Below are positions 3,533-44,360 of a stretch of DNA of 64,000 bases, piece by piece. A program made the position numbers and the translations under genes. Source of the DNA: Diphasiastrum complanatum. Its lineage: Eukaryota; Streptophyta; Lycopodiopsida; Lycopodiales; Lycopodiaceae. Under the pieces are notes generated by a model. The model did not search any database, was not told the DNA's origin, and was given only the letters and a program-made list of their open reading frames with translations. The stretch is from NCBI GenBank assembly GCA_029204225.1, contig CM055097.1, positions 31,137,599 through 31,201,598 of the forward strand, in the 5' to 3' direction. Each line of letters opens with the position of its first letter. Position 1 is the stretch's first letter.

Positions 3533-3553
3533 CTCCTCAGCAACGGCGCCAAA
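3533..3553 (-). other. Primer-binding site, tRNA-Asp type
   Basis: On the minus strand the sequence reads TTGGCGCCGTTGCTGAGGAG, matching the TGGCGCCGTTGCCG signature next to the 5' LTR of many plant gypsy (Athila/Tat-type) elements. It directly abuts a TG dinucleotide that would be the edge of the LTR. Confidence 0.7.
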
Positions 3554-3554
3554 T

Positions 3555-4330: not shown

Positions 4331-5340
4331 GGGTTGAGTGTGGATATTCAGTTAGTACTTGGTTTTGATGCTTACTTTGAGGTTACCAATCTTGTTTAAT
4401 GGTGATTGAAGGTAGTTGAAATTTTGTTGATGTATAGTTGATTGTTGTGATAAGCATGGAATGGTTTTGGATTGAGGTTCTTGGATGAGAGGTAATTACA
4501 TGTTGTTTTCTTCTAGGAGTTGTCCATTTGTGGTTTGTGGTAAATGCATGAGAGTGAAGTGTAGTATGTTTGAGAGAGTTGTTGGAAATGTGTTGCTAAG
4601 TGTTGCTTGTTTGAGGATGCTTGGAAGTCAATGAATTGAAAGTGATGGTAATCAGTTTGGGAGCTTGCTTGCAGCTTGAGAGAGCCTCATTGTCAAGTGG
4701 GAGGTGTTGCAAGATGGGATAGGCTGTGTTTGGAAGAGATTTTTTTTATTAAGGAGCTTGTCATTGAGTTCTTGGGTTTGCTTTCTTTCGATGTGTACTC
4801 ATGATAAGTTGGGATCTTTTAGTTCGTGTGTGTTTGTTATTCTTCCATCTATGAGAGTAGGTTTGAATCATAAGTTAAGAATCTTCTCAAATCAATTGAT
4901 CATGATCTATGTCATTCCATCTTTCATGATAAAAGAGTTATCTTTCGAGCCATGTAGGTACTAAGTACCTCTTAGTATTTTCTTTCATTCTACTGATGAT
5001 TGTCATGCTGGACCATAAAATCATTCCTATTGAGAACTCATCAAATAACCTTGTTGCTCATTGATCTATGAGGAATAATCATAGATCATTTTTTGGAATC
5101 GATGAGAGCTCACATGCGTTCACATTTGAGACAGACAATAATAATGGCTAATCATGATTTTGTTAGTAGATTATAAGATTGTGAAAGCTACTTTCAAGCT
5201 AGCATTTTTTCACACTTCAAGACTTTTTTGTGTGTACAATGTGCAGTTGGTTTTGAACTCGTAGTTTCAATTGAGCTATCACTTCTAAAGGTTCATACTT
5301 CAACCCTTCTGCCTGCATTTTGAGATTTCACAGACTTGCT
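4331..5340. other. No gene seen
   Basis: G/T-rich then AT-rich sequence. The longest frame (4704-4964, plus) has no recognisable domain and no supporting context. Nothing here can be assigned. Confidence 0.4.
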
Positions 5341-5342
5341 AC

Positions 5343-5419
5343 GGCCAACCAGGACCTACCTGATTTGCGGCCTATGTAGGCCAACCAGGACCTAACTACT
5401 TGATTTGCGGCCCATGTTG
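5343..5419. repeat. Two-copy tandem repeat
   Basis: GGCCAACCAGGACCTA followed by TGATTTGCGGCC occurs twice in succession (about 36 and 41 bp). The second copy carries a small ACTA insertion. Confidence 0.8.
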
Positions 5420-5764
5420 TTAATTGCCAACAATAAAATTGTCAATTTTGAAAGTGTTTTTTTTTTCTTCTTTTTCATCATTTATGGAGAGTGTTAACCA
5501 AATCCGACCTCTATGAAACACCAAAGCGGGCCGTCCACCATCCGTGGTTGAAATACACTGCCTTGGTTAAGAGTCGTACTAGTCACACCCACCGTCGGAA
5601 ATGCCTAGCGAAATACCACCGCTTATCAAACAAGGCAGTGCATATAACTTGCACCCCATGAACACTCTATACAGCAAGAAAATATAACAAAAAAGAAGAA
5701 GACACCCCCATATCAAATTTCATGAGCACTAGCCTTTTTGCCAAACACCTCCTGTATGATCTTC

Positions 5765-6225
5765 TAAGGGCATAGCCTTACCATTGAGAATCACAAGACT
5801 TTAAAGGCACGTATTCATACACTAAAGTCCATACTTTATCAAAGGTCATGATCCTAGAGTTAAAGGCTATATCCTAGAAATCTAAAGGCACAGTCCTAAA
5901 ACTTGAAGGAAATACCCCTGAAATGAAGGGCATAATTCACATTTCGAGCCCTTATCTTGCTAGGGACCGAGAACTTGGAATGAGAAGTCGGCCCTAAGCT
6001 TTTAAGGTAGCATCTTGAACATTGGCGGTGCACTCCCTCAACCATAAGGGTGGTGTCTTACATTTTGAGAATTGGACCAAAGAACTTCAAAGGATGGATC
6101 CTTACAAGTCATAGGCTGCACAGTCCGAAACATTCAAGATGGTACCTTAGAACATAGGTAATGCCTTAATCATTGAAGGTGCCCAAACCCTACCAAACCT
6201 ACCTCTTAACCATTAAGGACTATCT
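5765..6225. repeat. Degenerate ~22-bp minisatellite
   Basis: A loose unit close to AAGGCAYAATCCTARAACTTG recurs at roughly 20-24 bp spacing, for example near 5800, 5840, 5860, 5882 and 5907, and with more decay to about 6225. I count somewhere between 15 and 20 recognisable units. No reading frame stays open across it. Confidence 0.55.
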
Positions 6226-6477
6226 GAAAGCTGAATTGATGGAGAAAGAGACATTAGTGAGATCATAGCATGAACTAGCAGTCAGAGATTTGAGAACAGA
6301 AACATGAACCTAGATAGCTAGCGGATCATCGAACCAAAGTGCTAGCACCCCCTCCTTACAATCGTACTTCTGAGAGCCTGGAAAACTCTCATCGGCTCGG
6401 GAGCACGAGGTAACAAAGAAGGCCCTCAAGATTGGATGTGGCAGGTCATATGTTACTCACGTAGGGCATAATCACCA

Positions 6478-6783
6478 TCAGTGGTGGTTCCCCTTGATCC
6501 TTTTAGGACTTTTTGGTTGGTGGACTAATCCCCTGTCGAAAAATACCCTAACAGGCTTTGAGTCAGAACTAGATTCAGAAGACGTAGATTTCGATGTGTC
6601 TAAAGGATTTGGCAAATTAGCAAACTTCTCCTCGAAGAAATTTACAAATGATAAAGAGGCATTATAGAGGTTATCAAAAGCTTGTGGGCTTAATTTATTT
6701 CTTACAGACAAATTTTGTAAACTCTCAAGATACTGATTTTGAGCTTTCCTATAAGCTTCTAACTGCTTTCCCATTTTATCCAT
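6478..6783 (-). pseudogene. Short gag-like ORF, second gypsy-like element
   Basis: A 101-residue frame begins about 100 nt downstream (in element orientation) of the primer-site-like sequence near 6.89 kb, where a gag gene would start. It is hydrophilic, with a helical N-terminus (KQLEAYRKAQNQYLESLQ) and a Ser-rich stretch. I do not recognise a conserved gag core, so the call rests on position. It is far shorter than a normal gag and is probably a truncated relic. Confidence 0.35.
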
Positions 6784-6886
6784 TTTTGTTCAATGGTTAC
6801 GTCCGGTTAACCTTGCGCATACATTACATGAACAAAGATTCATAGAAGACTTGGTACACTTAAAAATCACAAAAGATGAGATTTGT

Positions 6887-6906
6887 CTCCTCGGCAATGA
6901 TGCCAA
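6887..6906 (-). other. Decayed primer-binding site, tRNA-Asp type
   Basis: The minus strand reads TTGGCATCATTGCCGAGGAG. This matches the site at 3533-3553 apart from changes that mostly fit deamination of CpG positions. It is followed at 6911 by TGTGGTGGCC, like the TGTAGTGGGC edge of the other LTR. Confidence 0.55.
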
Positions 6907-6910
6907 GTTA

Positions 6911-8890
6911 TGTGGTGGCCTATTCGTTATAGCTTTCCACGATAATGGTAAAAATGTGTAGTATAAAAGGTATATCGTTCCCCTAGAGAGAGATAAATCT
7001 TCTCTTTTGAATTATAAGTGTAAAATGAATAATTTCGGAGGTAAGGTATGTGATATTCACGGTTGAGTACCACGATGAAAAGGCTGATTATCCACAGATA
7101 TTGGTATAAATTGACATCCAGTAACACCAATGTGAAACGATATGGTCAAGAATTTAGAGTGAAGATGGTACTTTATCTTTCAGACAACCAGGATAAATAA
7201 TAATAAGATTTCAATCCACTTAATCTCACATTTTCTTCTATAAGAATAAGACGACTAAGACACAATGGTATATGAGGTAAAGGGTTGGATTTCATGAGAA
7301 GTGATGTTATGAAATTGTCACAAACATGTAATTTGTTGACTTTCTTTGGTAAAACATTCAATGGTTTTTGGCTATTCATCATGCAAAGTTATCTATTTCA
7401 CATTTCAAAACTAACAATGTCCTAGCTTTTATATTGCTGTAACATTTATGATATGCAAAATTCTGACTTCACAATATTCATAATTATATAATGTTTATAA
7501 TTTCAAAATATTTATAAGTTTGCTATTTCATATTAATATGCATTATATTCCTCCAAAATTGTTAGAAGAAAGACACATATTAGTAAAAACTAATCTAGAA
7601 CTTTGTGTACTTAATAAATGGAAGACATTGGCCCAACATGTTTTACTGTACCATCGATAAAAGCCTACAAGGGTAGGAGGTAACAAAAGATAAATAATTT
7701 AAACTGTTTTACCTCAAGTCACTAGGAATTGTCACCTCCTTTAGGCAGAATAGGTGATATGACCAATCATATGAAACATGAATGGAGCATCTAAATTACA
7801 AAAGAAATCCCTAACTACATGTAATAGGATCATTTGATATGATGACCCATATTGAAAGAATAAAAAATCAAAGTGGTTCTATATGCTTAAAAGTTTGATA
7901 TAAAAACCTACAAATGTATCATGTCTCATTCCCAATCCATATTCCAAAAACTTGTTAAATAAACAACCTTCGTTCAATTAACTACATAGTTTTAAATCCC
8001 AAAGTACTGAACAAGTCTCAAATTTTCAACAGATCTTCTCCTTATTTTTTCTGCACTATTGTCTTGTTATTGTTCCTAATTTCTTGAATACTACCACTCA
8101 CCTATCTATATGTACTACAATAACACTTCTCGATCAAGTTCTGACTAAAATGATTATCACCATGTAACATAAACATGGAAAATCACAGGTACCTATGACT
8201 ATAACACAAATTTTTTTTAATCTTTTTGATGGAATCAAATCGAAAATGGAACAGGCTGAAAGTTCTATCAATTACTATGTTTAGTTTTGAACGATGTTTG
8301 CAAATTTCGAAACTGTATAAAAAAATAAAAAAAACATCCCACCTTAAATGAATACCTGAGTTTTGATATATAATAAAACAAATTTTCCTCGCATGTGCAA
8401 TTACATAAACCGCACACAATAATATGTGAACATATAGTGTTCATGTAACCAAAATACTAGTTTAAGACAAAGATCAGCTTTTGGTCTTCCTTGCAATATT
8501 TCCAACAAAACTTTGAATCTATAAGCACAAAAACTTTCTAACATATTAAAATATTGACTACAACAATTTTCTTCAACTAGTTTTCTAAACACAACTTTGA
8601 GCCAACTTATATTTTTTTGTTCAAATTCATAAATAACTATGGTACATAGATCAATAAAGATACATAGCAAAATCAATAACATAAATAAATAAATACAATA
8701 ATAACATATCTAATTTACAAAAATTTCAGAATCTTGTATTTTTTAACTAGTGTTTTTTGTTCATAATTTTATCTCTTTCTTTTATCAATATTTGTGTTGC
8801 GCCTACTACTAACATGTCTTTTTATCTGCAGATTATGAAATTCTACATAACAATTGCAATCAAATACAAAACTTTTTTTCTAAAACAAAA
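6911..8890. other. AT-rich stretch; left end probably LTR
   Basis: The first several hundred bases would be the 5' LTR of the element whose primer site lies at 6.89 kb; no partner LTR is present to fix its end. The rest is very AT-rich with small overlapping frames on both strands and no recognisable domain. Confidence 0.35.
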
Positions 8891-8892
8891 AC

Positions 8893-9429
8893 ATGACAAC
8901 TCCAACAAACGGTGATATTGTAAAAAATTCTAATATTCATGAACAAAACAGAAATTGGACACCTATAATGACAGTTGCATTAAAAACATTGCTTGAAACT
9001 CATCCTACTTATACTTGAAAACAAATTATGATAGAATTCCATCACATTTTTTGAAACAGAACATACTTCCGCAACTATATTTTATTGTATTAGAATACTT
9101 AAAAAAGAAGCTCGTTATCAACATGGACATGTGATATGACAAACTATATTGAAGAACTTGTTCAACAAGCACCAGCATTATTCAAAAAACATATCATTAA
9201 CAAATTCCAAACAAGATTTCCTATTGCTCTAATGAAAAACGAACGTATTTTATATCGTATACGAAAAGCATTAAATAGCAATAATTACATAAACAGTACA
9301 CGTATCACAAATATAAGCAACTCTTCTCAAAAAGTTAGACTCAACAAACAATATTGGACTCACGATTTAATATTAGTTATTAGACAATTAATTTTACAAT
9401 ACTTGACAAGTCAAGACCAAACCCTTTGA
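8893..9429 (+). pseudogene. Unrecognised basic ORF with decayed N-terminal extension
   Basis: The open part (9136-9429, 97 residues) is rich in Asn, Ile, Arg and Lys, with ALFKKHIINKFQ and ERILYRIRKALN segments that could form helices. The same frame extends upstream to an ATG at 8893, interrupted by TGA, TGA, TAG and TAA codons; the two TGA codons could be decayed Trp. A frameshift near 9085-9110 is an alternative. I recognise no family. It may be a relic of a DNA-binding or mobile-element protein, but nothing seen proves that. Confidence 0.3.
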
Positions 9430-9913
9430 ACCCTTCAATTTATAGCATAACATGTAAGAAAAAAGCTGTATAAAGTCTTACAATATAGAGTACCATAAAG
9501 CGAAGCAAGTTTTAGGACACTCAGCTATTACCTGCCACCATCCCACAAAACACAACTGCACAAGTTAGTTACGTGAGAAAGATAAGTGTCATAGCTGAGC
9601 ATCATGTGTTATCCATGTCCAAAAAAAGATTAACTACAGGTTGGGAAGCTAAGTCGTGGTTTCCGGCTCCCTTTGGGATGCCTGCGCTACAATATTTGCT
9701 TCTTGTGTGATTGTGAAATTTGATGAAAATCTTTCGACAATACTTATTTGCAGCTTGACAACACTGCTAGGAAAAATAAATACAGAAAAAAAAAAATTCA
9801 AAAAAGTAAAAATAGAAATTTTTAAAAAGCTACATATGTACAAAGATCATATATATAGAGGTGGCTTGAGTTCCTAACTTATTTATCATGTGGATAGAGT
9901 TGTGGCCTTATCA

Positions 9914-9925
9914 GCTCTGATACCA
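9914..9925 (-). other. Copia-type primer-binding site (orphan)
   Basis: GCTCTGATACCA is the complement of TGGTATCAGAGC, the initiator-tRNA-Met site used by copia elements. It is followed two bases later by TGATGGAATGG at 9928, a possible LTR edge. The expected minus-strand gag to its left is not visible, so this is a relic or a chance match. Confidence 0.5.
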
Positions 9926-9927
9926 CC

Positions 9928-11050
9928 TGATGGAATGGAACGAAAGGATGATTGTAATTAAAAATAATACATCCAATCTTCCCTATCATGCATTTTATAA
10001 TTAGCAATACATTCTGCCCTTTAACAAAACCGTATAAAGACAGATGCCATACTGGTCAGTACAAGAGCAAAAAGAATGTATTAAGTTCACATAAGCTTTC
10101 TACATGTACAAAGCTATCTTTCATTATATAGATAACAAGAGACATGACTTTAGCATTAGTGCTAGGTACTAGGGCAAATCCATGCCATACTAGCCCCAGG
10201 TGCTCCCACGAAAGTCGTAGGGAGTCCAAGCACCTTATGGCTTGGGCAAATCCATGCCGTACAAGCGCGCCAAGGTCAAGCTCTTACAAAATTCACAACT
10301 TACTCAAAAGAAACCACTCTTAAGTCCAATATATCATGTCGTTGTTATAAGTGTTATAACTAACAACTTATCAGTTTAAAAGATGATAAACGCAAGTACT
10401 CTTCGTAACTATTTATAAGAGTAATAATCTAAAGTCTACTGTAAATATCTTGATGTATGCATAAACTGTCACATATTATCGAAAACATCATTCAAATTGG
10501 TGTTACCTCATATGGCTTCATACCTGGATGCGATTTGAAGAGATTTTCAGCGAGCTACACATCTCCAATCACTTTAAGCAAGATCTTCCTGATATACTAG
10601 TAATTACACACCGAGAATAATGAGTTAAAGGTAGCGTGTTATGGTTATAAGAGTATCGTATCGTAAAAAAGATGTTAATCGTCAATAGAACGTCATTCGT
10701 TTTGCAAGCCGGTGTTGGTATCTTAAAAAGCCATAAACACGTCTTTACATTACTTCATATCTTGATTTCCAGCACATTTTGCAAATAGTACAATTGTTTT
10801 GGTATCATTATTTTCAAGGTTGATACTACTAATATTGCTTAATAGAACCTGTCAATATGATAACCAGAGACACTACATTATATTACAATTCTTATGAACA
10901 ACCATGTATTTCATTCTCTATCAATGTTAGTATGTGCAATTGAGATAATATAGAAGTACGTTGGGCAGCCAACTGTGAGTAGTATTGAGCCAAAACAGTG
11001 TTATGCATTGCATGTATACTCATATAATATTGCTTTTGATACAAAATAGC
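9928..11050. other. No gene seen; possible LTR of the orphan copia relic
   Basis: Non-coding. GGGCAAATCCATGCC occurs twice (about 10173 and 10254), an ~80-bp spaced direct repeat. No partner LTR is found in the window. Confidence 0.3.
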
Positions 11051-11054
11051 AGGT

Positions 11055-11174
11055 AGAGCGATGGTGCACTGATCCGCTGTCACCATGCATTCTGAAAAGT
11101 GAGAATATGCACAAAGAGCGATGGTGTATTGACTCGCTGTCAGCATGCATTCTTAAAAAGCGGAAATCCGCACA
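11055..11174. repeat. 60-bp tandem duplication
   Basis: Two adjacent 60-bp units each start AGAGCGATGGTG, with CGCTGTCA.CATGCATTCT in the middle. They differ at roughly ten positions. Read on the minus strand they are in frame and encode a repeated peptide (..MHADSES.HHRS..), but no known protein is recognised. Confidence 0.85.
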
Positions 11175-11625
11175 TAAGGCAAGCATCAACTTATACAATC
11201 ATGTAAGAATCTGAAGCATTTCAGGAAGCACGTAGAAGTGCGATCTACCACTCCATAGTAAAATGCTGGCCAACAGCCCATTACTTTACCAAAGTAACCT
11301 CAAAGCTATACATTCATCAACGATTTTCCTATCAAGTGTGCCATCACTGTTCAGAAGCAACATTTTCAAATCGATATTAAGTATCATACCTCAGTAATTG
11401 TGGAGGTGTGAGGCTGAGGCAGCGCTCAATTGCAGTAGGAATTCAAGTATCCCACCAAAAAAAAATGGTTTTTTGAAAAAAAAAAGAAATTCTTGGGGGG
11501 TCATCCAACTTAGCATAACAATTTGAGACAATTTAATGGCATTGTTTTTGAAGAGACAACATAAGAAACCTTTCCAACAAAAACTCATGGAGCATTTATA
11601 ATAAAATTTGTATAAAATAGAGTCC

Positions 11626-11628
<3 letters not shown>

Positions 11629-11678
<50 letters not shown>
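11629..11678. repeat. (AG)n microsatellite
   Basis: About 25 uninterrupted AG dinucleotides. Confidence 0.98.
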
Positions 11679-11681
<3 letters not shown>

Positions 11682-12263
11682 TTGCTCCTAAAAGTAGAAT
11701 TTTCATAAAGCATTGGGATGTTGCAGGCTTTGCAAGAGAATGAATGTATTTTTCTTTAGGCTTTCAAGTCAGATAAATGCTTGTGTCTTTTTGCAGTCAA
11801 TCTCTAGTAGATGCATGGTTTCAGTCTGAAGATCTTCGTTGAAGGTAAGAAATTGGGAATGTATACATAGAAATTTAAAGACTTCATTAGGGGATATTAG
11901 AACTCAAAATGGGCCTTTGTCAAGATGTTGTTTTTGACTTGGCATGCTTTCAACGCTTATGTGTCCCAATGAATTTTGTCCATCTGTGACGAACTGTAAT
12001 GGTGGTTGACGGACGAAAATTGTATTTAACTTTCCCGACAAAATTTTCGTGATTTTCAAATATCTTCCAGATTTTTCGAGTGAGGAATGGATTTCTCTTG
12101 ATGCAGCAATTTCAAAAAGTTTTTGATCTAGGCTATATATTGATATTCAGAGTATATTAAAATGTAGCACTAGATCAAAGAATAATAGATTAAGTTGGTA
12201 TCTACCTTTTACTATTTTTGTTGATTTTTTTTTTCCAAATGCAATGTTCGGAAAACGAAAACA

Positions 12264-12811
12264 ATGTTTATTTGTAAGGACTTGAGTGCTGATATAATCG
12301 CCGAGTTGTTGGATGATGGTTGGGATACAAAACAAAATCAGCAAGTTGAGTGCAGAGTATGTTACTCATCCATGACATTTAGATATCACATCGAAAAATA
12401 AATGCTCACTATGCTGCTGTATTATAGAAGATGGATTAAATGCAAAAATGTTTGGAAGCCACTTGATCAAGATTTTGGTATAAATCCTCAAGAGCAACTT
12501 CAAATAACAGTGAAAAGAAATGACAACATTCTTGCAATGGTTGAGATCGAGGAAGATTGGTGTCTCAATCACATTCAATCAGAACTAGACATGTTGCAAT
12601 TAGATCTACCTCAATACTATCAATTTTGATTGAATGGTGTAAAGGTACGTCATGCCATATAAAAATATTCTTTTTTTTTCTATTTCTAAGTGAATCAATT
12701 TCATAAAATATATTAACTAAAACAATTTCTCTTGTGCAGTTAAGAGTAAGACATGAAGAGCATATAAAATGCAAAGACATTGGAACATCCATCGAAATTG
12801 AAGATCCATAG
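12264..12811 (+). pseudogene. Unknown two-exon gene, decayed
   Basis: One frame runs from an ATG at 12264 to 12644 with two in-frame stops (TAA at 12399, TGA at 12627). A GT-AG intron follows (12645-12739, GTACGT donor, TTGTGCAG acceptor), phase 0. The second exon (12740-12811) stays in frame to TAG. The protein has an acidic N-terminus, a C..C pair (ECRVC), a segment DNILAMVEIEEDW and, near the splice site, LPQYYQF then LNGVK. The end of exon 1 and exon 2 have the feel of a small ubiquitin-like or PB1-like fold, but that is a guess. It sits beside the H3/protease gene, facing it, and may belong to the same element. Confidence 0.45.
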
Positions 12812-12995
12812 ATTATGAACTATGGAATTTTGTATTATGTAATACAATTTTTTGTATACATCATTTTTGAAAATATATGAACCCACTTTTTCTATGAGGC
12901 TCTTTCATTTCTATGATCTCCATTTCCATGGTGCAAAACACAATGTAATTGCAACTGGATAATATGTTTTTGATAACAAGATTCATTGTCTCTTG

Positions 12996-13786
12996 CAGGA
13001 AATGCACTATCTCCATTGGGAAGATTTTCAGTCACTTGAACTCCAGTGATCAGTACAATCGACGCTTGCCCTTGTTGATGTCTCATATATATCGGTTGTA
13101 TTTTTGGTCTTCATTGCCTTGGTCTATATTGTCCTTGTCTTGGCATATTTGGATATGTTTAGAAGATGAACTAATTAAAGCTTTGCTGCAACAAATCTAA
13201 GTTTGTTGCATGTTTGGATTGGTTGTGGCAAAGGTTCCATTAGATCATCTTTTTGAACTTATCTAAAAAAAAAAAACATGATAAAGGCAAGACAGACCAA
13301 GGCTATGAAAAACAAACTTGTCGAGAAATCGTAGAAATTGAGATGAATGAATCATAACCTAAATTAATAACAGAAAAATAAACAGGAAATGCATTATCTT
13401 TATTGGGGAGATCTTCAGTCACTTGAATACCAGTGACTACTACAATCAGATATCGAATCAACGCTTGCCCTTGTTGAAGTCTCGTATATATCGGTTGTAT
13501 TTTTGGTCTTCATTGCCTTGGTTTGTATTGTCCTTGTCTTGGCATATTTGTATATGTTCAGTTGATGATTTGATCAAAGCTTTGATGCAACAAATCTAAG
13601 TGAACTAATGTCGCATGTTTGGATTGGTTGTGGCAAAGGTTCGATCAGATCATCATTCTGAACTTATCCAAAAAAAACCATGGTAAAGGCAAGGCAAACC
13701 AAGGCTATGAAAAACAAACATGTCGGAAAACCGTAGAAATTGAAGATGAATGAATCATAACCTGAATTGATAAGAGAAAAAAAAAC
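12996..13786 (-). repeat. Tandem duplication carrying copies of the protease gene's last exon
   Basis: Two adjacent units (12996-13382 and 13383 to about 13786) are clearly alike along their length: both start CAGGAAATGCA, share CGCTTGCCCTTGTTGA and TATCGGTTGTATTTTTGG, and end in an A-rich run. Their left ends match the last exon of the minus-strand H3/protease gene (around 14000-14044), including the ..LPNGD.. coding segment. So the 3' part of that gene has been duplicated downstream of itself. Confidence 0.75.
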
Positions 13787-14291
13787 AAGTAAGAACAACC
13801 ATAGAAAAACTATAAATATATTTCTATTAAAAATTTTTGTACATGTGTCTCATCCACATCAAGTGAGGCAAATATTTAATCAGTATCAACTATCTATGAT
13901 CTCTAAATCCATTTCTTCAGTTGGAAGTAGCTTGGGTGGAGAACATTCGGCCACTGCAACTGGATATGAATTTTTGATCACCAACTTTATGGTCTTCTTT
14001 CTGAAGTGCATTATCTCCATTCGGGAGACTTTCAGACATTTAAACTGAAAAAAAAAAACACAAACACAGTTAAATGTAATTAATCAAAGATCAGTTAATA
14101 TTAATTTGAATTAGGAAAAAACAAAAACACAATTAAAAGTTATTATTCGAAGATTACCTTTTCTAGATTTGGAAGTCCCATCTTGTAGTGCAAGCCAATC
14201 AAAAAAGTATTTGGCATTGCATATGGTATACCAACCACAGCTGACAGAATCAACCTGTTGGGAGGACTGCAAAATCCAAATTTTAACATTA

Positions 14292-14366
14292 TGAGATATC
14301 AGATCAACTACCAAGATGTTATAACTAAATCTACAACGGAAACAAGGGCGCGTCGAACCGATATCA
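14292..14366 (-). repeat. ~74-bp inverted-repeat element, copy 1
   Basis: The right end reads GGGCGCGTCGAACCGATATC; the left end (GATATCAGATCA) is decayed. It lies in an intron of the H3/protease gene. Confidence 0.5.
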
Positions 14367-14380
14367 AAAAAATATTTTTT

Positions 14381-14452
14381 GAATATTGGATCAGCGCGCA
14401 CGTTATGAAAAGAAATCAAACAATAACTACAAGGGCGCGTCGAACCGATATT
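14381..14452 (-). repeat. ~74-bp inverted-repeat element, copy 2
   Basis: The ends are GAATATTGGATCAGCGCGC and GGCGCGTCGAACCGATATT, imperfect inverted repeats of each other. It lies in the same intron as copy 1, 14 bp away and in the same orientation. Confidence 0.7.
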
Positions 14453-14553
14453 GATAAATTTTTACCTCTGCATCAACAATTTTTAGCTTCGTATATGCTT
14501 TTGCATTTGGTACTGGAAAGAGTTCCAGTATTTTCTGTATATGGCTCCTGGCA

Positions 14554-14555
<2 letters not shown>

Positions 14556-14599
<44 letters not shown>
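14556..14599. repeat. (GT)n microsatellite inside the protease gene
   Basis: About 22 TG repeats. On the coding (minus) strand it reads as a His-Thr run within what should be the protease domain, so it either disrupts the protein or marks an unrecognised intron. Confidence 0.97.
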
Positions 14600-14601
<2 letters not shown>

Positions 14602-15487
14602 AGAGTTCATCTTTAAACAAACTGGATTACACACACCCTCATCATTGACGTATAAGGACAACACATATAAGTTCCAATGATCACTGCAATCATAAAACAA
14701 TAAGTTAATGAGAATCAATGTGAAATCAAAATTCATATGAAAAATTTAACAAAATAAAATCTGAAAAAAAGACACTTTGTTATGTATGGCAACACGAGAA
14801 TTGGAGTCCCCAGTCTGACGTATTGGAGCATATCATCGTGCAGACTTTTGAAATCAGAAAAATCAAACGCAGTCATGAATTGAAGGGAAAACAATGCTAC
14901 ATTCATAAACAATGGGGTCTGGAAAAATCCCATCCAATACTGAATGGCCTCACCTCCTACATTGTCACCTAGCATTTTATCTCTATTTTCTAATTCACTT
15001 GTATCTAAACTAGAAAGGGGGAGACCAACATTGGTCTTCAGCATCCTAAAACTGTATTGAGGACCTAAACCTTTAAGATATGTGTTTAATAATTGGTCAT
15101 ACTGTACATATTGAGGACTATTTACAAAGGCAAGTGCAGGGGGTGACAGAAGTATTACAGATAAACCAGAAAAAGAATTGTCTTTCAAAATTGATTCTAC
15201 CTTTACATTAACAAAATCATCTAAATCATTTCCTAGAACAGGTGGAGAGGAACTAATATTTTTGAGGATAGGAGGAGGAGTTTAGGAGGAGGAGATTTAT
15301 TAGGAGAGGAAGATTTAGGAGGAGAAGTTAAAGTTGGAGTTATCGGATGAGAAGAAAGATACTTAGGAGGAGAATTGGGAGGAGAATGCCTAGAAGAAAG
15401 AAACTCATCCAAAGGGGATGGCTTGGAAAAATCTCTCGCTTTATTTGGAGGGTCAAGAGACCTCCTCTTCTTTGAGACACTCCCGTT

Positions 15488-16000
15488 CTATAGACGAATA
15501 ACAAGCCGAGATGGTTGAGATTGTTTTCGTTTTGACCTCCCTGAATCTTGTTTTGGAGGAGAGGAGGGAGTAGGTCTAAAGTATTCTGCAAATTTGTCAT
15601 ATGTGTCTTGAAGCCTGAACACAATGTTGAAATCCTTGGGCATGATGGTCACCCTCTTGACATGGACAGCTGCAACAATAGTATCAGAAAAAAATTTCAC
15701 CTAGAAATCCTCATATGCTGTGTGCAGCGTCTCAATTGCTGTTACCGTCCATCTCACATTTGCAGATAGACTTCTTGTCACCTGCCTGATGGATCTCTGT
15801 ATGTGAGCTTTTGGAATCAGAAGATTATTTGTCTTCTGTAGCTTTCGAATATCCTTGAGCCAGGGTGGGTCTCTTCTTCTGCCCCTTGGCCTAGGAGGAG
15901 GTGGTGGTAGACGAGGTGGTGGTTGTAAACTTTCCTGTCCTGCTCCTGAGATTGGTATTCCACCAGGGTGGCCTCCTGCAGTTTGCTTGGTCCGTGCCAT
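15488..16000 (-). other. Histone H3-like domain of the fusion gene
   Basis: The N-terminus MARTKQTA is identical to canonical H3 including Lys4, but what follows is a Gly/Pro/Arg-rich stretch, so the ARKS motifs around Lys9 and Lys27 are absent. The histone fold is then easy to follow: DIRKLQKTNNLLIPKAHIQR corresponds to the H3 alpha-N region, NVRWTVTAIETLHTAYEDF to the long alpha-2 helix, and VHVKRVTIMPKD to the C-terminal region, with KRVTIMPKD identical to H3. A TAG lies between EDF and VKF. After the fold comes a basic Ser/Pro linker (SGRSKRKQSQPSR). The fold is divergent elsewhere, so it is neither a normal H3 nor an obvious CENH3. Confidence 0.85.
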
Positions 16001-16006
16001 TACTGA

Positions 16007-16078
16007 CCAATATCGGATCAACACGCGAAGAAGGTAAACCCAGGATGAGAAGTAGGGTAGAGCACGTCGAACCGATAC
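16007..16078 (-). repeat. ~74-bp inverted-repeat element, copy 3, next to the H3-like start codon
   Basis: The ends are CCAATATCGGATCAACACGCG (right up to the H3-like ATG) and GCACGTCGAACCGATACC. On the minus strand the copy begins with GTATCGG after an AG and ends with TTGGTCAG, so it could itself be spliced out as a 5'UTR intron. Confidence 0.7.
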
Positions 16079-16536
16079 CTGAGCTCTACAATATTGATAA
16101 CTGATAGCGGATGGGCACGCGAGAGTATTGAGTTTGCCTCGAATGCGCTGTATCATTTTCGCATGGATGTAGAGAACTGTAATAACTTTAAGCAAAAAAA
16201 TTTCAATGTCGTCTATCAGTATATACAGAAAAATTTTGAAATGATTGAAAACGTCGTGGGTTGGATGTCCGAGGTTTGAATTATGATGATGATTTCTCTG
16301 AGACTTGTCAATCAAATCAAAGTGAATATCCATCTATAATAAAAATAATTAGTCGATATCGAATAAAACAAAATTAATTTCGTCTAAAGTATGGTCACAT
16401 CTACATTTAAAGCTACAAAAGTATGGTCACATCTAAAATTTAATGTTGAAATTGACAATGTTAAGCTATAAGTATCTGACATTTTTTATATCCAATCATT
16501 ATAATTTCGTAATATTCTAGCCGCCATTATTTCACC

Positions 16537-16610
16537 CAATAGCAAATCGACGCGCATATACTGCATGTGAAAACTAGAAATTCTATTCCTGCGCGCTGAT
16601 CTGATATTGG
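16537..16610 (+). repeat. ~74-bp inverted-repeat element, copy 4
   Basis: The clearest copy. Left end CCAATAGCAAATCGACGCGC, right end GCGCGCTGATCTGATATTGG, an imperfect ~20-bp inverted repeat around a ~34-bp centre. It is in the opposite orientation to copies 1-3. Confidence 0.75.
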
Positions 16611-16703
16611 AAAATAATATGAATGATCAAAGCTTGATTCGATATATGCTCCTTAGCTTTGGACTCCAATAATTTCAAAAATTGTCAAAAAATTTTGTTT
16701 CCT

Positions 16704-16778
16704 ACCCTAGCAATTTGACGCGAGCAATCCAAGTGAAAAATCACTGTCATCGTTAAAAGCGCACTGATCCAATATCCA
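16704..16778 (+). repeat. ~74-bp inverted-repeat element, copy 5
   Basis: Left end CCCTAGCAATTTGACGCGAG, right end GCGCACTGATCCAATATCC. The orientation and spacing match copy 4. Confidence 0.65.
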
Positions 16779-16780
16779 GT

Positions 16781-16832
16781 ATTTCACCCGATAGCTAATC
16801 GATGCGCTTATACAACATTTGAAAACTAGAGG
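16781..16832 (+). repeat. ~74-bp inverted-repeat element, copy 6 (left part only)
   Basis: ATTTCACCCGATAGC, then TCGATGCGC, and the following bases through GAAAACTAGA match the left end and centre of copy 4; the right end is missing. It lies just upstream of the plus-strand gene. Confidence 0.6.
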
Positions 16833-17610
16833 TGCTTTTCTCAATTGTTCCATTGATTGAAGCATTTGCAACTGTTGCAGTTGATGTAGATGATGTAGAT
16901 ACTGATATATGGGTTGAAGCTGAAACATCTATGGCTTCAGATTATCAAAAAACTCTCCCTCGTTTTATAATTCTCTCTGATTCTCTTCCATCTGCAACTC
17001 ATGTTAATCAATTAACTCTACTTGATGTTCCCTTATATTTTATAAATAATGAAAGTTATATTTCATTTAATGACATAGAAGATGTTTTGAATTTGAGAGA
17101 GGATGAAATCCTTTCAATTTTTGCTCAAAATTTATATGAATTTTCTGACATTGTTGATTACTCATATGATGACCTTGAAAGTGAGATAGACTATGATAAA
17201 GATGGCAATTGGAAATCTGGAAATGAGGCCTTGGAGGCCATGATTGAAAAACCTAAAGCCTATGAAAAAAATTTGTCTATAGAGATCCAAAAAAAAATCC
17301 CCCAAGGCCTAGATATATCCCCTCTGGAAATGTAGAGGCAATTGGAGGACATGACATTGGCAGAGCAAACGTCGTTGATTACGATGATTATGATCTGGTA
17401 CATAGATGTTATATTGTTATTGATATTGTTCAGTTTTCTTATTGAGTTTGCAGTGTTATGTATAATTCTAAATTTATTTTCTTTTCTCGTTTACGGAATG
17501 TATTTGAAATAGATGCTTTTGGTATGAGACATGGAGGCGTCCGTGGTGTATCAGCCAGGAGAAAAGATGTGTCTCTATCTCATTATTTGAAACACTTTCA
17601 AAATAATGAG

Positions 17611-18435
17611 TGTTGATTTCACACGTGTGGAGTGTCCACAACATGTATTTGTGATCTCCTAAGGTGTGTAGATGCACCAAGATCAAGACTAGATTGAGAT
17701 TCAAGATCTATCTTTGATTCTATGGCAAAAATACACTACTACATGCATTCAATCACTTCCAACTCTTACTCACACATGTGGGAAGTGTTCCAAAATTAAT
17801 CTAAGTAAAAACAAGCTGCTCTCCTCGGGTAGAGAGAGAAAATCATCAATAGCTCTCGGGTAGAGAGAGAAAGCTAGAAAATCACTTACACTCAAAATCC
17901 ACTCGATCTCAAAATCAATTAGATCCAAATGAGGAGTACAATGATACTAGTAGATCCATGAGCTTCCACTATGCTTAACTATGATTGGACCACACTTTGC
18001 CACCTCTTAATCCTATTGGACCATTGATCCATGCACCTCTAAATTCTATTGGACCATTTTCAAGCAAACCTCAAATTCTATTGGACCACTCATGGTTCCA
18101 CCTCTAAATCCTATTGGACCTCTTAAACTTCATCAAACAAAAGCATTACACTTGTCTAAACTCTAATTGGCACAGGTTTGGCCTCCTACTCTATTTTGGC
18201 TCAATAGTGACATTACAAGTGGAAATGGATAATTTGTCATCTATGCCAAATTTGACCCTATCAACATCCTACACCTAAATGCTTGACTATGAGATTCTAT
18301 GAGACCCCTATATCAAACATTTTTATTTACTTTACAATTCTCCACACGTGGGAACATACTCCACACATGTGAGATTCACTTACTAACTTCTATCATAAAA
18401 AAAATACCAAGCTAGATTTTTGCCAATTTTTCACA
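17611..18435 (-). repeat. Copia-6 3' LTR
   Basis: 825 bp, TGTTGATTTC ... TTTTTCACA. It contains the CACACGTGTG palindrome at 17620-17629. Confidence 0.9.
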
Positions 18436-18561
18436 CTCCTCCTCAAAAAATAGCTTGGAAAGGTACTAGATCACTTGAGAAGTTTGTGAATCTTTCTGAG
18501 TGGATCCTTCGGTATGCATAAGAAGTAAAGATCAACCAAGGGATCCATCATAGCAGCACCC

Positions 18562-19926
18562 TCACCATATCCATGATAAGATCTCTTTGGTAGAGGTCTC
18601 TTGCCAATGCCTTTGAAGAGTGCTCCACCAATATGCCACTATTATCATGGGCTTCCTCCATGCTTGATGATGATTTTTGCTATGAAAGTTCCACTTGCAT
18701 GATGGATGCACCATAAATAGATAAATCTGAGGCTTCCAAGCCTCATAAGGATCATGGAGATCAAGATCATAAGATGTGAAACAATGATGATTATCAAGAT
18801 TATGCTTTCTAGCTTGACTAGTCCACATACAATGAACTATATCCATGATGGATCTAATCTTGATATCAAAGACTATCTTGATCTTTTTTAGGCTAGTTAC
18901 TCTCTCAAGGATGTAAGTGTCCACTTTGGATGCTTCACTTAATCTCAAGAGGAGTTTACAATTTGCCTCAAAACATGTGAAAACATGATTTTCAAAAAAG
19001 TGAGTACCAAGCTCAATCTTGTTCTTACTAGAACCAAGAGCATACTTTTGACAATACAATATCTTGCTTTCAAAAAGTATTGGAAACACATCTAAGTCAA
19101 TAATGACAAGAAACATGTGCATACCATAAGCATCATACAAAACTAGTATAGCTTTTCTTGAACTTTGAGATCCAAAAAATTCAATGAAGCAAGATAGCAT
19201 TTCAAGCAAAGGAAGAGAAGCATATATGAATGTGTTGTAGTAGATACAACATGAAAGATGCCCCTCTTTGCCATGTAAGGTGAGCCATAAAGACTCGGCC
19301 ATGTATCTTGAAGATCTTCTTGAAATCATATGAAGAAGAAACTCCTCCTCCCACATTGGTCCCATCATAACTTGAATACCTTCAAAAAAGATAACTTGTG
19401 ATGCTTCTTGAGAAGCCTTGATCTCGGCCACTTCCAAGATTGAATCTTTATGCAATGTGACATCTCTACTCACAATCACTTTTAAAATAGAGAGTGTAAA
19501 GACACTAAAGGCCTCCTTGATGGATGAGTATCCAATCATGATCCATGACCTTGGATCATCCTTCCTTCTTGTTTCCAAGGGAATATGTGCAAAGCAAGCA
19601 CTACCAAGTTCACTAAGGTGATCAACCTTAGGCTTCATCTTAAATAAAACGTCATATGGTGCTATTCCTTCAAGAGTTCCAATACTCCTCAAAGCTTTGA
19701 TCTTCAATGAGAATTTCTTCTCAACATATGCTTTGAATAATAAGGAATAATTATACACCATAATACTTGAAGAGAGAAGATATGTGCATCTTGTGTGATC
19801 ATCCTCCTTTGAAATATTGGACATATAAGAAACATCAAGAGAGTTTGCACTCTCACTTGGATCCAATTTGTAGATGCCTTCAGATCTTGATCCATATGCA
19901 AGGATCTCACCATCCTTCTTGATCAC
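18562..19926 (-). pseudogene. Copia-6 pol remnant lacking the reverse transcriptase core
   Basis: An open 454-residue frame. The N-terminus (ILAYGSRSEGIYKLDP) is the region after the protease. The integrase core is largely missing; the frame then shows the integrase C-terminal pattern (KPKVDHLSELGSACFAHIPL, ETRRKDDPRSWIMIGYSS) and a linker (RRSSRYMAESLWLTLHGKEG). A rewritten reverse-transcriptase flank follows, in which ENHVFTCFEANCK takes the place of ENHVFICQSRYA seen in Copia-4. No YVDD motif is present, so it cannot encode an active reverse transcriptase. Keeping 454 codons open despite these losses is odd. Copia-3 has a related ORF. Confidence 0.7.
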
Positions 19927-19982
19927 ACAATTGTCAATATTGAAATTGACATCAAAACCACTATCAAGAAGTTGGCCAACAC

Positions 19983-20492
19983 TTAAGATGTTCTTTGTAA
20001 GCTTTGGGACAAAAGAACATTGTTGAGAAAGAGATCTTTGGAAGATGCAAGCTTCAAGGGAATAATCCCTACTCCTTCAATATTGCACTCATGCTTACTT
20101 GCAATGTATATGGTCTTCTTGACTCCATCATAAGGCATAATAGATGAAAAAGAGTGCTTGGAGCCACACATATGTGAGGATGCTCCACTATCAATATACC
20201 ATGAGTCATCCTTGTTGAAGGTGGAAGAGGAGAAGCTTGATGCCATAAGAGAGCCTTCTCCATCACTTGCAATATAGTCTTCTTTCTCATTGGTGATGTT
20301 GGCTTGATTGAGTTGATTCTTCTTCTTGAAGCAATTGGTGGCATAATGGCCTTTCTTGCCACAATAAAAGCAGTTGATCTTCTTCTTCTTGAGATTTGAA
20401 TTAGAAGCATGAGAGGTATCCTCCTCCTCTCCATCTTGGTCTTTAGCTTTGTCATTAGAGAAGTGATGATGTTGCTTTTTACTCCTCGGCAC
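19983..20492 (-). pseudogene. Copia-6 gag C-terminus and protease
   Basis: It contains a CCHC zinc knuckle (CFYCGKKGHYATNCF) that binds the element RNA and a pepsin-type protease site (WYIDSGASSHMC). The frame begins abruptly at the junction with the truncated LTR near 20490, so the N-terminal gag domain is missing. It breaks at 19983, where the Copia-4 counterpart continues into ..PRLTKNLISVGQLL. Confidence 0.85.
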
Positions 20493-20753
20493 AAGTTTGG
20501 CCTCCTACTCTATTTTGGCTCAATAGTGGCATTACAAGTGAAAATGGATAATTTGCCATCTATGCCAAATTTGACCCTATCAACATCCTACACCTAAATG
20601 CTTGACTATGAAATTCTATGAGACCCCTATATCAAACATTTTTATTTACTTTACAATTCTCCACACGTGGGAACATCCTCCACACATGTGAGATTCACTT
20701 ACAAACTTCTATCATAAAAAAATATCAAGCTAGATTTTTGCCAATTTCTCACA
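20489..20753 (-). repeat. Copia-6 5' LTR, truncated
   Basis: It matches the last ~265 bp of the left LTR from GGCACA.GTTTGG onward and ends TTTCTCACA beside the target duplication. Confidence 0.85.
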
Positions 20754-21103
20754 ATGAGATTTGTATATATCATTCATCTTTTAATCCATATGTAACCACT
20801 GTCATTATGGCCATCAAATCATTATCAGTTTGTTTGGGAGGCCATAAGTACGCAAGAGGAACATATAACATAAATTTTGTGAAAAGAGATTTGGCTATTA
20901 AGATATTGGGTTATACTCCCAATGAGACTATGAAAAGATCATCTGCAATGGCCTTTTATTCGGGTTACATTGATATGAGCAAGAGAAAAAATTTAGAATT
21001 TTTGGATCCATATGAAAGGAGTTCTTCATGACAATACCATCCATCTGAAGCTTGAAGAGGATGATGATGATAAATAAATTTTCTGTAATAGATTTTTGAT
21101 ATA

Positions 21104-22484
21104 TTACAAGGATTTCTCTTTTGTAATGAATTTGAATGCTTTAATACTTGGCACGTTTTTAGCTTGATATCTAAATTGTGCTCTTCTATAAAACCACTGA
21201 AAAAGTTGAAATAAATATTTATTTCTTGAATTGTGTCCTCCATGGTTTGTTGCTCTATAAAATGCTCCCCTTGCTTGCCAATGAGATTTTCTCATGCCTT
21301 GTGATGACCAGATACTTAAGCTCCCATATTCCTTTGCAAAATAAGTTGCACGATGAAGAAGGATGTGCTGCAAACAATAGTTTTGATTAGTTACATCAGT
21401 AGAAAAAAATATAAGCCCGAATGAGAAAAATATTAGATAATAATATAGATTAGCACCATGTAATGAGTAACATTGTCTTTTCCCCAACAATCATATGCAG
21501 ATTTTACAAATGTGGTGCAATGATTTTACAAAGTCCTCATATCTTCTGATGATAGGTTTTCTTTCCTGATAACACCTATGAGTTTGTCTAAGTTGGTCCA
21601 CGTTTGTTCCTTTTCCACTCGATTACTTCCTTCCAGTGTTCATGTGGCTTGAACAATTTCTCTCCAAATTTTGTATCTGACACTTGATTCTTTGCATGTG
21701 TGATTGGATAAGAATCTTCTTGCTTTAGCACCTCCAATTGATAAATTATTAGGAACGTTTCCTTTTTTCCCGAAGAGTCTGTCACTTTTTTCAATCGTGA
21801 CATTTTCTTTATGTAGTCCTGCATTTGACAGAACTATTTCCAACCTCCTAATTGTTGCTTAAGCCACAAACTCCGGTTTAGGATTCCATGCTAGTAGAAT
21901 ATGCAGGTAAATAAGTTTTTCAATAATACGAACCTCAACATGCAATGTGCATATGTGAACATATTTTAATGGAATTGGCATAACACTTTTCATATTTGGA
22001 TCTTCAGCTTCTCGGGCTGGGCCAGTGTTTGTTAATTGTCCCAAATTCATATTGTAGCAATCCTTCATGCAATAAAGACATGGATGCTTTGATGTTGCCC
22101 ATGAGAGACATTATACATACATTTTAATGTTTTCAAATCCCCTACAAGGTGCCATTGAATTTGAAAACTTCCATGGTTTTCGACTGTAAATTTATCACCC
22201 TCTAAATGTCTCCTTGTAATCTCGCCATAATTTGTTTTTGAAAATATCCATGAAAGTATTTTATGGTCCTCTTTCAAGACCTGTAGAGAAACAAGTAATG
22301 CATGACATGTCAATAAAAGTTGGCAAGATATGAATTGTTAATAAAGATATTCTAAATGAAAATAGAAATCTATACCTGGAATGCCGCCAACCACCATATG
22401 TGATTTTTCGATTGAGCATTAAACGTTTGATCATTTGTATCTGAAATTTTGTTCATCAAAGTGACACTCACTCGTTCCAACCTT
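21104..22484 (-). pseudogene. Conserved-looking unknown protein gene, multi-exon, decayed
   Basis: Three exons are visible on the minus strand. Exon 1 (22376 to at least 22484) ends NHIWWLAAFQ. The intron 22281-22375 is GT-AG, phase 0. Exon 2 (about 22280-21457) includes WHLVGDLKTLKCMYNVSHG, then after a one-base frameshift HPCLYCMKDCY and IPLKYVHICTLHVEVRIIEK. The intron 21368-21456 is GT-AG. Exon 3 includes LHRATYFAKEYGSLSIWSSQ, KSHWQARGAFYRATNHGG and QLFQWFYRR. The clustered Trp, Cys and His residues and the HPCLYC pair look like a genuine conserved family, which I recall only as unnamed proteins in repetitive loci. Stops include TAA near 21859 and TGA near 21640. The N-terminus is lost at the gypsy junction at about 22485. 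Confidence 0.55.
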
Positions 22485-22498
22485 GATGACAGCGGTAT

Positions 22499-23260
22499 AT
22501 GACAGAGATGCGTACGATGATATCGTCACTTGACGAGGGCTTTCACTCGTCTTCTTCTCAGCCTCCGCCTTTGTATCCTTCCCAGCTGCCCACTCGTTAT
22601 CCTTCTTTTGATACACAAATGATCATTGATTTTCCTCCTGATAAAAATATAAAGCCCACAAAATATGCTGGTACAACTTCCTAGAGGACTACTGATGTTG
22701 TAGATCAGTGGTTGCACAAGTGGGAAGAGTATTTTGATTTGAAATGGGCACCCACCGATGAAGGCTAGCGTGTTCGTAAGGCAGCTTACCATTTTATTGA
22801 CTTTGTTGACAGGTGGTGGCGCAAAGTGCTGAAATCACAGCAAGCCCCATTCACCTGGGTTGACTTCAAGCGTTGTTTTTGGGCACAGTTCGTTCCTCCA
22901 CATGAGCATGTGTGTGCGACGGATGCTTGGTTCTTGCATCGTCAGAGGCAGCACATGGTGCAGGAATATGTTGATCAATATAGAGAGATGATGATCAAGA
23001 TACCAAAGGAGATTCCCAAGTGGTTGGTAGTCCACAAGTTCATAATTGGTCTTCGTGCAAAGTTGAGGCCTTCAGTTCTTAATGAAGGATGCAAAACCTT
23101 GGAAGAGGCTGTTGCTACGACCCTCAACTTTGAAGGCAATGTACGCAACAAGGCTGAATTTGGAGTGGCAAGAGTGCCCTAGAAGATGGGTTCGCAGAAG
23201 TCCGGCCAAGCTGGTCAGAGGGATTTCTCGCAGAAGGATCCTATCCAGATGCAATAGACT
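22499..23260 (+). pseudogene. Gypsy gag
   Basis: The capsid-type gag core is clear: VVDQWLHKWEEYFDLKW, then VDRWWRKVLKSQ, FTWVDFKRCFWAQFVPP, and QEYVDQYREMMIKIP. This is the Retrotrans_gag pattern that builds the virus-like particle. TAG codons at 22682, 22766, 23180 and 23255 interrupt one otherwise continuous frame; each is explained by CAG turning into TAG. The zinc knuckle follows at the start of the next open stretch ([13 protein letters not shown]). Confidence 0.85.
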
Positions 23261-24560
23261 TTGAAGCAAAAATTGGCATCTCCTATGGCTCGTCGTGCTT
23301 ATGACAAGTCACCAATTACTCCTGAGCAAAAGGATAAGGCCAAGAAGGAAGTCTTGTGTTTCTTCTGCCTTGGCAAACATTTGTTCAAGGATTGTCCTCG
23401 ACGCACGGGCAAGAAGCTCCATGTTTTACAGCAGCGTCAAGAGGAGGGCAAGGATGAATCTATCCTGGATGATCTGTTGGTCAGTGATGATGATGACGCT
23501 AGACGTGTCATGACTATTTCGATGCGGAAGCTTGTTCCAGAGGCACCAGTTTGTTTTCTTTCCACCAAGGCACGAGAGGCCTATCAATTTCCAGATAGCG
23601 AACTGATACAGATGAGAGGGAAGCTGGAAGGTCATGATGTGCTTGTCCTATTTGACACCGACTCTTCCCATAATATTATCAACTCTCGTGTGGTGAAGAA
23701 GTTGCACTTGGCTACTGTTCCTTCGGATTACCGGTATACGGTTGAGATGCGAGATGGTAAGGAAACAGAGGTTTGGGATAGGAGAGTCTCTCAGGCATTG
23801 TTGTCCATTCAGACCTATGCTGAGAAGTTAGACTTTGAGATCACCAAATTAGCTAAGTTTGATATTGTACTTGGTAAGCGATGGCATGCGAGTAAGCAGC
23901 CCACTATAGATTTTAAGACTCATGTATATAAGTTTGGGCATGAGGGTTTGTCTCATGTTCTGAAGGGGGAGCGGCCTACTATTGAAGGTCCTCTTGTTAC
24001 CTTGATGCAAATAAAGAAAATGGAGTTGCAGTATGTGTGCTTGTGTTATCTTGCAAATGTGAATGTTGATTCTAGTTTTAGTTGTTTGCAAATAAACTCA
24101 TTCGCAACTTCATCTGATTTAATAACTTTGGTTAGTGCTAGTTTGATACAGCAACAACGATGTGATCCAACTAGTCAGCTAGAGCGATCCATCCGAGCTA
24201 AGTTTAAACATTTATTAATTGACCACATGCCAGAGGGATTGCCGCCTAGACATAATGTGGAGCATCGTATTGAGCTCATTCCAGGGGCAAGTCCGGTATG
24301 TAGACCTCCTTATAGGATGAGTTTGAAAGAAGAGGAGGAAGTCCAAAAGATGTTGGAGGAATATCTCAAGCTGGGGTATATCCGTCCTAGTTTCTCATAT
24401 TTTGCCTCCCCTATTTTATTGGTTAAGAAAAAAGATGGTACTTTTCGGATGTGCGTAGATTACAGGGGATTGAATAAAATCATTGTAAAGCACAGATATC
24501 CGATGCCAAGGATTGATGATCTACTGGATGCATTGCAAGGGGCAGTCATTTCAGTAAGAT
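23261..24560 (+). pseudogene. Gypsy zinc knuckle, protease and N-terminal reverse transcriptase
   Basis: A continuous 433-residue frame. [16 protein letters not shown] is the CCHC knuckle. [14 protein letters not shown] is the protease site; the usual DSG/DTG triad has become DTD, so the protease was probably already damaged. The reverse transcriptase begins with [20 protein letters not shown] and reaches [18 protein letters not shown] and [13 protein letters not shown]. The frame ends at a one-base deletion near 24550, just before the expected [11 protein letters not shown] motif. Confidence 0.85.
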
Positions 24561-25540
24561 AGATCTCAAGAGTGGCTACCATTAGATTTTGGCTGGTTCA
24601 GAAGATGTTCCGAAGACGGCCTTTCGAACATGCTTTGGACATTATGAGTTCTTGGTTATGCCATTGGGTTAACCAATGCACCGGCCACATTCATGATGCT
24701 CATGAATGATGTCCTACATGATTTTATGGGCAAGTTTGTAGTCAATTTTATTGACGACATCATCTAGTTTATAGTAACTCGGTGGACGAACATGAGGTTC
24801 ATCTCCGTACTATGTTTGGTAGGTTACAAGAAGTGGTCTTGTATGCCAATTCTCATAAAATAGAGTTATGTAAGACTCATGTCGAGTATTTGGGTCACGT
24901 AGTGATGGTAGAGGGTATTTCAGTTGGCTCTGCCAAGGTGGCTGTTGTCAAGCAGTGGCCAAGATTGGCCGATATTCATCAGTTGCAGTCTTTCTTAGGT
25001 TTTTGTAAGTTCTATCGACGGTTCATTAGGAACTATTCCTAGTTAGTTGCTCCTTTGACAGACTAGTTACTAGGGTTTAGCATTGTGGTTGTTTGGGATG
25101 CTGAAGCACAACATAGTTTTGACCACTTGAAGGAGGCTGTGGCCACAGCTCCAGTGCTCAAGATTGTTGATCCCAACAAGCCCTTTGACCTAGAGACGGA
25201 TGCAAGTGACATTGCCGTAGGTGCAGTGTTAAGTCAAGAGGGTGGACCTATTGCCTTTGAAAGTAGGAAATTGATGCCAGCACAACAGAGATATCCCACG
25301 CACGAGCAGGAGTTGTATGCGATCATACATGCGCTCAAGGTGTGGCGACATTACTTGTATGGCGCCGAATTTTACGTGTATACTGACCATCATACTTTGA
25401 AGTATTTTTGCACTCAGCCAGATTTGAGAGGCTGCCAAGCTCGGTGAGCCAAGCAGATGCAGGAATTTCATTTGAAAATTCGCTTCCGAAGAGGGAAGGA
25501 AAACGTGGTCGCCGATGCACTATCTCGGATACTACATCAG
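24561..25540 (+). pseudogene. Gypsy reverse transcriptase palm and RNase H
   Basis: After the frameshift the palm is broken. A TAG at 24583 falls in the SGYHQI motif, and the catalytic FIDDII is readable near 24745-24765 but followed by another frame change. The thumb is open at 24782-25042 (YLGHVVMVEGI, LQSFLGFCKFYRRFI). RNase H is at about 25085-25540 (FDLETDASDIAVGAVLSQ, then TDHHTLKYF, then KENVVADALSR), with TAG at 25040 and 25064 and TGA at 25445. Confidence 0.85.
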
Positions 25541-26816: not shown

Positions 26817-26898
26817 TTGAGCTTATGCTACCTGAGAGATGCAACAGTGTTTGCAAAAGTCTTATCCAAGATTTGTCATTGAGGACCGATGACTTGCC

Positions 26899-26912: not shown

Positions 26913-26913
26913 T

Positions 26914-44298: not shown

Positions 44299-44360
44299 CT
44301 CCTCTTAAAAAATTATCTATGAAGATTTGAGCATTGATCTTGATATAACTCCAAGATTAG

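Follow-up and report, generated by a model that had tools for sequence, protein, structure and literature searches.

The minus strand of the 64-kb window (the whole stretch of DNA that was analysed) carries the remnant of a multi-exon gene between positions 16000 and 13889, with an ATG at 16000 and a protein that starts MARTKQTA. The original prediction, a histone H3-like domain fused to a Ulp1/adenain-type protease, had the feature end at 13917, which is corrected here, as coding stops at 13889 and is followed by a TGA at 13888-13886. The sequence landmarks it had named are all present on the minus strand, namely the MARTKQTA start, KRVTIMPKD, the Ser/Pro linker (Ser/Pro/Lys-rich), the HW motif (DHW at 14682) and the Q-x5-CG motif (QQVDSVSCG, within 14266-14159). 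Beyond the 199-nt intron (14465-14267) the next exon reads SSQQVDSVSCGWYTICNAKYFFDW, and the layout of the gene and its surroundings is given in Table 1.

Table 1. Features of the gene remnant and of the adjoining DNA, in window positions.
Feature	Position	Strand	Remarks
H3-like domain	15578..16000	-	141 codons from ATG; one TAG (codon 100); Pfam PF00125, PDB H3.2
Ser/Pro/Lys-rich linker	15285..15577	-	basic patches SKRKQ and SKKRR; one TAG; frame change at end
Exon 1 remainder	14776..15281	-	linker end and N-terminal half of proposed CE-clan peptidase; no stops
Intron 1	14684..14775	-	92 nt, GT-AG; in-frame join gives ITN-DHW
Exon 2/3	14466..14683	-	DHWNLYVLSLY (His motif), Asn-Ser near expected acid, CA run, then SHIQKILELF..VDAE
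Later intron	14267..14465	-	199 nt, GT-AG, phase 0; contains modules M1 and M2
QQVDSVSCG exon	14159..14266	-	proposed oxyanion Gln and nucleophile Cys
Last exon	13886..14044	-	52 codons and TGA
Module M1	14296..14364	-	69-bp palindromic module; arms with 0 and 3 mismatches; in 199-nt intron
Module M2	14383..14451	-	69-bp palindromic module; arms with 0 and 0 mismatches; in 199-nt intron
Module M3	16010..16078	-	69-bp palindromic module; arms with 2 and 1 mismatches; ends 9 bp before ATG
Module M4	16539..16607	-	69-bp palindromic module; arms with 0 and 2 mismatches
Module M5	16707..16775	-	69-bp palindromic module; arms with 1 and 5 mismatches; second arm weak
Divergent acidic ORF	16823..17335	+	perhaps runs on in another frame past poly-A to ~17450
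Two degenerate last-exon copies	12902..13427	-	short from 13427, longer from 13040; ~400-bp tandem units

This copy of the gene is dead. One TAG interrupts the H3 frame at 15703-15701 and another the linker at 15490-15488, and near 15285 the frame changes, after which a minus-strand frame of 182 amino acids stays open. This much of the decay had been predicted, and more frame trouble is now added to it: the reading frame differs on the two sides of a CA run at 14598-14556, where the alternative to a lesion is an 85-nt GT-AG intron (14632-14548), and at the junction of exons 4 and 5 the frame is not kept with the GT at 14157. Reassignment of the TAG codon was set aside informally, since long ORFs of retrotransposons run without TAG.

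By homology, the identity of the first domain as histone H3 is certain and far beyond chance. With the stops read as X, it matches the Pfam Histone family (PF00125) at 3.4e-20, and in the PDB it matches H3.2 best (1.7e-18), with residues 1-131 colinear, the best 60 of 173 matches there being all named H3 or H3 variant; the predicted H3 fold is thereby upheld. Identity to H3.2 stands at 34 of 88 residues in the core and 13 of 44 in the tail. Among the residues kept are R52, K56, K64, R69, R72, R83, H113, K115, R116, T118, K122, D123 and R129, while R63, K79 and R128 are not kept and R49 and R53 have become Lys. The domain shares with canonical H3 the ARTKQTA start, the H3 core, KRVTIMPKD and a loop 1 of H3 length. 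It differs from canonical H3 in a proline-rich, single-lysine tail and in a C-terminus that continues into the linker and the peptidase-like part. K4 is the sole lysine of the tail, and other residues or a gap stand at the places aligned with K9, K14, K18, K23, K27, K36 and K37, in a tail alignment that is loose beyond residue 13. Loop 1 is longer in CENH3 than in H3, and membership of CENH3 was rejected on this point, the PDB alignments shown having no insertion there. A single-sequence structure model of the H3 part was poor (mean pLDDT 46.2), with helices roughly at H3 places.

An observation that goes beyond the original prediction is a cluster of paired 69-bp modules outside the proposed exons, which may be targets of the gene product. 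At up to three mismatches, CGGTTCGACGCGC occurs five times (expected 0.43) and ATATTGGATCAGCGCGC four times (expected 0.07), all in 14348-16775. The 17-bp consensus ATATYRGWTCRRCGCGC has eight sites in the 64 kb at up to two mismatches, and all eight avoid the proposed exons and lie in this same interval of less than 2.5 kb, against a shuffle mean of 0.017 (60 shuffles); at up to three mismatches there are 11 sites, one of them at 13450, against a shuffle mean of 0.48 (60 shuffles). Such counts are partly circular, because the consensus was derived from the counted sites, but this does not apply to the clustering and the spacing. Each of the five minus-strand sites with up to two mismatches has an inverted partner on the plus strand (with 3, 0, 1, 2 and 5 mismatches in M1 to M5), and every pair spans exactly 69 bp; among 20,000 random placements, none had even three of five sites sharing one span. 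M4 and M5 sit between the gene and the divergent acidic ORF on the plus strand. A sixth candidate at 16791-16859 was rejected, its arms agreeing at 4 of 17 positions, and a three-mismatch site at 16104 lacks a 69-bp partner. One lone copy of the 17-bp motif, with three mismatches and without a 69-bp partner, lies in the downstream repeats at 13450-13466.

Inverted ends and a fixed length are also traits of MITEs, and each module could be a copy of some short MITE that has inverted ends of 17 bp and nothing to do with the gene. This is rather unlikely, as the arms are conserved between modules (identity 0.59-1.00 for left arms, 0.41-0.82 for right arms) while the 35-bp cores are mostly near chance identity (0.23-0.54, with 0.54 for M1/M2 and at most 0.37 for the others), no target duplication is apparent by eye in the 12-bp flanks, and no further 69-bp pair occurs elsewhere in the 64 kb.

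The region downstream of the linker is plausibly a Ulp1/SENP-like peptidase of the CE clan, judging from the order of its motifs and from the top-ranked, non-significant matches in the PDB. In the later exons His-Trp is followed by Gln-x5-Cys-Gly, as in CE-clan (Ulp1/SENP) peptidases. A spliced piece of 108 residues had seven PDB matches, the top three being SENP8 (E-values of 0.17 and 0.18) and RickCE (0.39) and the other four unrelated repeat proteins; for a longer piece with five matches, a decapping nuclease (0.14) ranked above SENP8 (0.29 and 0.46). Control queries gave no CE-clan protein among two matches when reversed and none among five when shuffled. A shuffled control nevertheless reached an E-value of 0.1 with an unrelated protein, which puts values of 0.17-0.39 at noise level, and the case for a peptidase therefore rests on register and not on E-value. 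All three CE-clan matches (SENP8 twice, RickCE) share the register of Gln-x5-Cys-Gly; for His-Trp and the acid region this is true of RickCE only, as the SENP8 alignments span just the Cys half. A difference from both SENP8 and RickCE is the Asn or gap at the position of the expected catalytic acid, where Asn-Ser stands immediately ahead of the CA run. The first half of the domain (14776..15281) was mapped onto Ulp1 by a register that we take to apply, and a single-sequence model of this N-terminal half had a mean pLDDT of 35.8 and was uninformative on the fold. The Ulp1/adenain-type label of the original prediction is thus plausible from the order and register of the His, Gln and Cys motifs and from PDB rank, but not significant by sequence, and the spliced pieces matched no C48 family of Pfam up to an E-value of 10. 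These shortfalls, together with the uninformative model, are what a different fold with HW and CG motifs by chance would give; such a fold is nonetheless improbable, considering that the His, Gln and Cys motifs keep CE-clan order and register and that two separate CE-clan families head the PDB ranking.

Ulp1 domains and histone H3 are both known to have been captured by mobile elements. According to the available parts of three papers (PMC13317346, PMC5735166, PMC10398659), VANDAL-type MULEs captured Ulp1 domains, named KIU, and VANC proteins, which remove silent marks, bind short repeated noncoding motifs, some of them in introns of VANC21 and VANB21; VANC targets occur in introns and upstream regions. 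The Kaonashi/KIU elements described there are non-TIR MULEs of the VANDAL type that carry Ulp1 and have anti-silencing VANC genes. They resemble this locus in their short motifs in introns and upstream regions and, on the reading proposed here, in having a Ulp1-type domain in a mobile-element gene. Repeated noncoding motifs are a trait of VANDAL/KIU elements, and the eight clustered sites are candidate binding sites of the same kind. By analogy, the gene would work most like the KIU/VANC system, with H3 as a chromatin anchor. In contrast to KIU/VANDAL elements, for which histones go unmentioned (neither PMC13317346 nor PMC6117577 uses the word in its main text), it has an H3 domain and its motifs form 69-bp inverted pairs. 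A further difference is that six-frame searches of 1-17600 and 20000-29500 revealed no MULE transposase, so the gene cannot be classified as KIU/VANC. Another parallel is found in hAT transposons of Dothideomycete fungi, which, in the part of the source available, captured histone H3 and likewise carry an intronless H3 coding sequence on a DNA transposon; they differ in that the captured H3 copy lies inside the element and that no protease fusion is mentioned in that part (PMC6710886).

Retroelements occupy much of the window, with a minus-strand Copia adjoining the gene (LTR-like repeat from 17611) and a Gypsy-type element on the plus strand within 20-29.5 kb. No transposase family was detected in the six frames of 1-17600 and 20000-29500 or in the two long ORFs examined within 17600-20000, and a search for terminal repeats between 9001-13900 and 16001-23500 gave no element ends, with a 14-bp exact match (E 0.11) at best. 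The window gave no matches to Rfam and no tRNAs, and there is no second full copy of the gene within its 64 kb. The acidic ORF (16823-17335), with a coding-like codon score of 18.6, is a possible partner gene of the same element; neither Pfam (E 0.5) nor the PDB (E 10) gave a match for it, and the viral-contig scan with 16823-17450 found no relative. The last exon and its 3' flank lie in tandem units of about 400 bp at 12902-14044, 84% identical over 408 bp. A host gene family with an H3-peptidase fusion, for instance a chromatin factor, represented here by a pseudogene in repeat-rich DNA, would fit the multi-exon structure with its introns and the failure to find either a transposase (1-17600, 20000-29500) or element ends. 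It is an unlikely source in view of the tandem decayed 3' copies, the surroundings filled with retroelements and the modules that resemble VANC targets, none of which is decisive against a host gene.

Scans of viral contigs and prokaryote genomes found no relative, as is expected for a eukaryotic gene in collections with few eukaryotic sequences, and the same kind of collection yielded none in a plasmid scan at the DNA level or in a phage scan with the H3 part. Among the open-licence papers listed by the literature searches, none describes an H3-Ulp1 fusion, which is weak evidence of absence.

The fusion itself was the central claim of the original prediction, and it stands in so far as the H3 domain occupies the same exon as the start of the protease side and later GT-AG junctions are in frame, while the frame change between the two parts speaks against it. 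We regard the H3 domain and the protease-side region as one unit because the first exon is open and the GT-AG introns at 14775-14684 and 14465-14267 join in frame. Read on to 15233, the H3 frame has three stops in 256 codons, the third of them beyond the frame change, where 5,000 Markov simulations gave a mean of 10.7 (probability of three or fewer, 0.004). Farther on, the minus frame of the gene has no stops at 15281-15130, against six and four in its sister frames, and none at 15131-14776, against 12 and 13. A codon-usage score trained on 11 retrotransposon ORFs from the window does not set the H3 or protease frames apart. A plus-strand frame outscores that of the gene in the linker (25.7 vs -1.1), where a second minus frame of 102 amino acids is open as well (15648-15340). 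With codon usage neutral or negative, the claim of coding therefore rests on homology and on the open frame. An H3 retrocopy or fragment that came to lie upstream of an unrelated ORF, the fused protein never having been made, would suit the intronless H3 part, the stop and frame change between the two parts, the neutral codon usage and the other open minus frame in the linker, but this chance juxtaposition is quite improbable, since the H3 has diverged as a protein does (core 34/88 identical, with many residues kept that we take to contact DNA or the second H3) where a fresh fragment would resemble canonical H3, and since its frame continues through a linker of low complexity that contains basic patches.

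Our preferred reading joins a dead multi-exon gene for a fusion of H3 fold, linker and CE-clan peptidase with membership in a mobile element; taken jointly, these are held tentatively, at somewhat below an even chance, with the peptidase identity and the element membership being the parts that we infer. The product may have been an anti-silencing factor of a transposon, a role that is put forward here as a proposal. In such a role, the H3 part would serve for entry into nucleosomes or docking on them, its tail open to readers and writers at K4 but lacking K9, K27 and K36, and a basic disordered linker would join the histone fold to the peptidase. At local silencing factors the peptidase would remove SUMO or a modifier related to it, and this action would be focused on the element itself by the paired motifs in the upstream region and the intron, much as VANC proteins act on VANDAL transposons. 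On its own, this mechanism of docking, stripping and targeting is doubtful. Plant KIU proteins, the closest analogue, are described as unlikely to act on SUMO (PMC6117577), and what their Ulp1 domain does is called unknown (PMC13317346); these statements, from the available parts of the two papers, count against the deSUMOylase step.

An H3-H4 tetramer organises roughly 70 bp of DNA, and the modules, with a closely similar length of 69 bp, may therefore be positioning sites for subnucleosomes. It is conceivable, if very improbable, that the element encoded a K4-only H3, fused to a deSUMOylase-like peptidase and placed by the 69-bp dyads, and so built custom subnucleosome sites that could not be silenced. 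Transposons are silenced largely through histone H3 marks and DNA methylation. A selfish gene with an H3 of its own, from which the silencing lysines are gone, and with a protease that removes modifiers would, if real, be a direct counter-weapon, as well as a natural tool to separate H3K4, H3K9 and SUMO in silencing. Where its product would act is predicted concretely by the paired-motif modules.

Elsewhere in the window, LTR-like repeats at 17611-18347, 43562-44299 and 61191-61886 are 88-89% identical. A 267-bp piece recurs at 20488-20753 as well (96%), and the Copia beside the gene therefore seems to be rearranged or truncated. A further Copia, at 47187-51172, has two long ORFs that overlap (806 and 565 amino acids).
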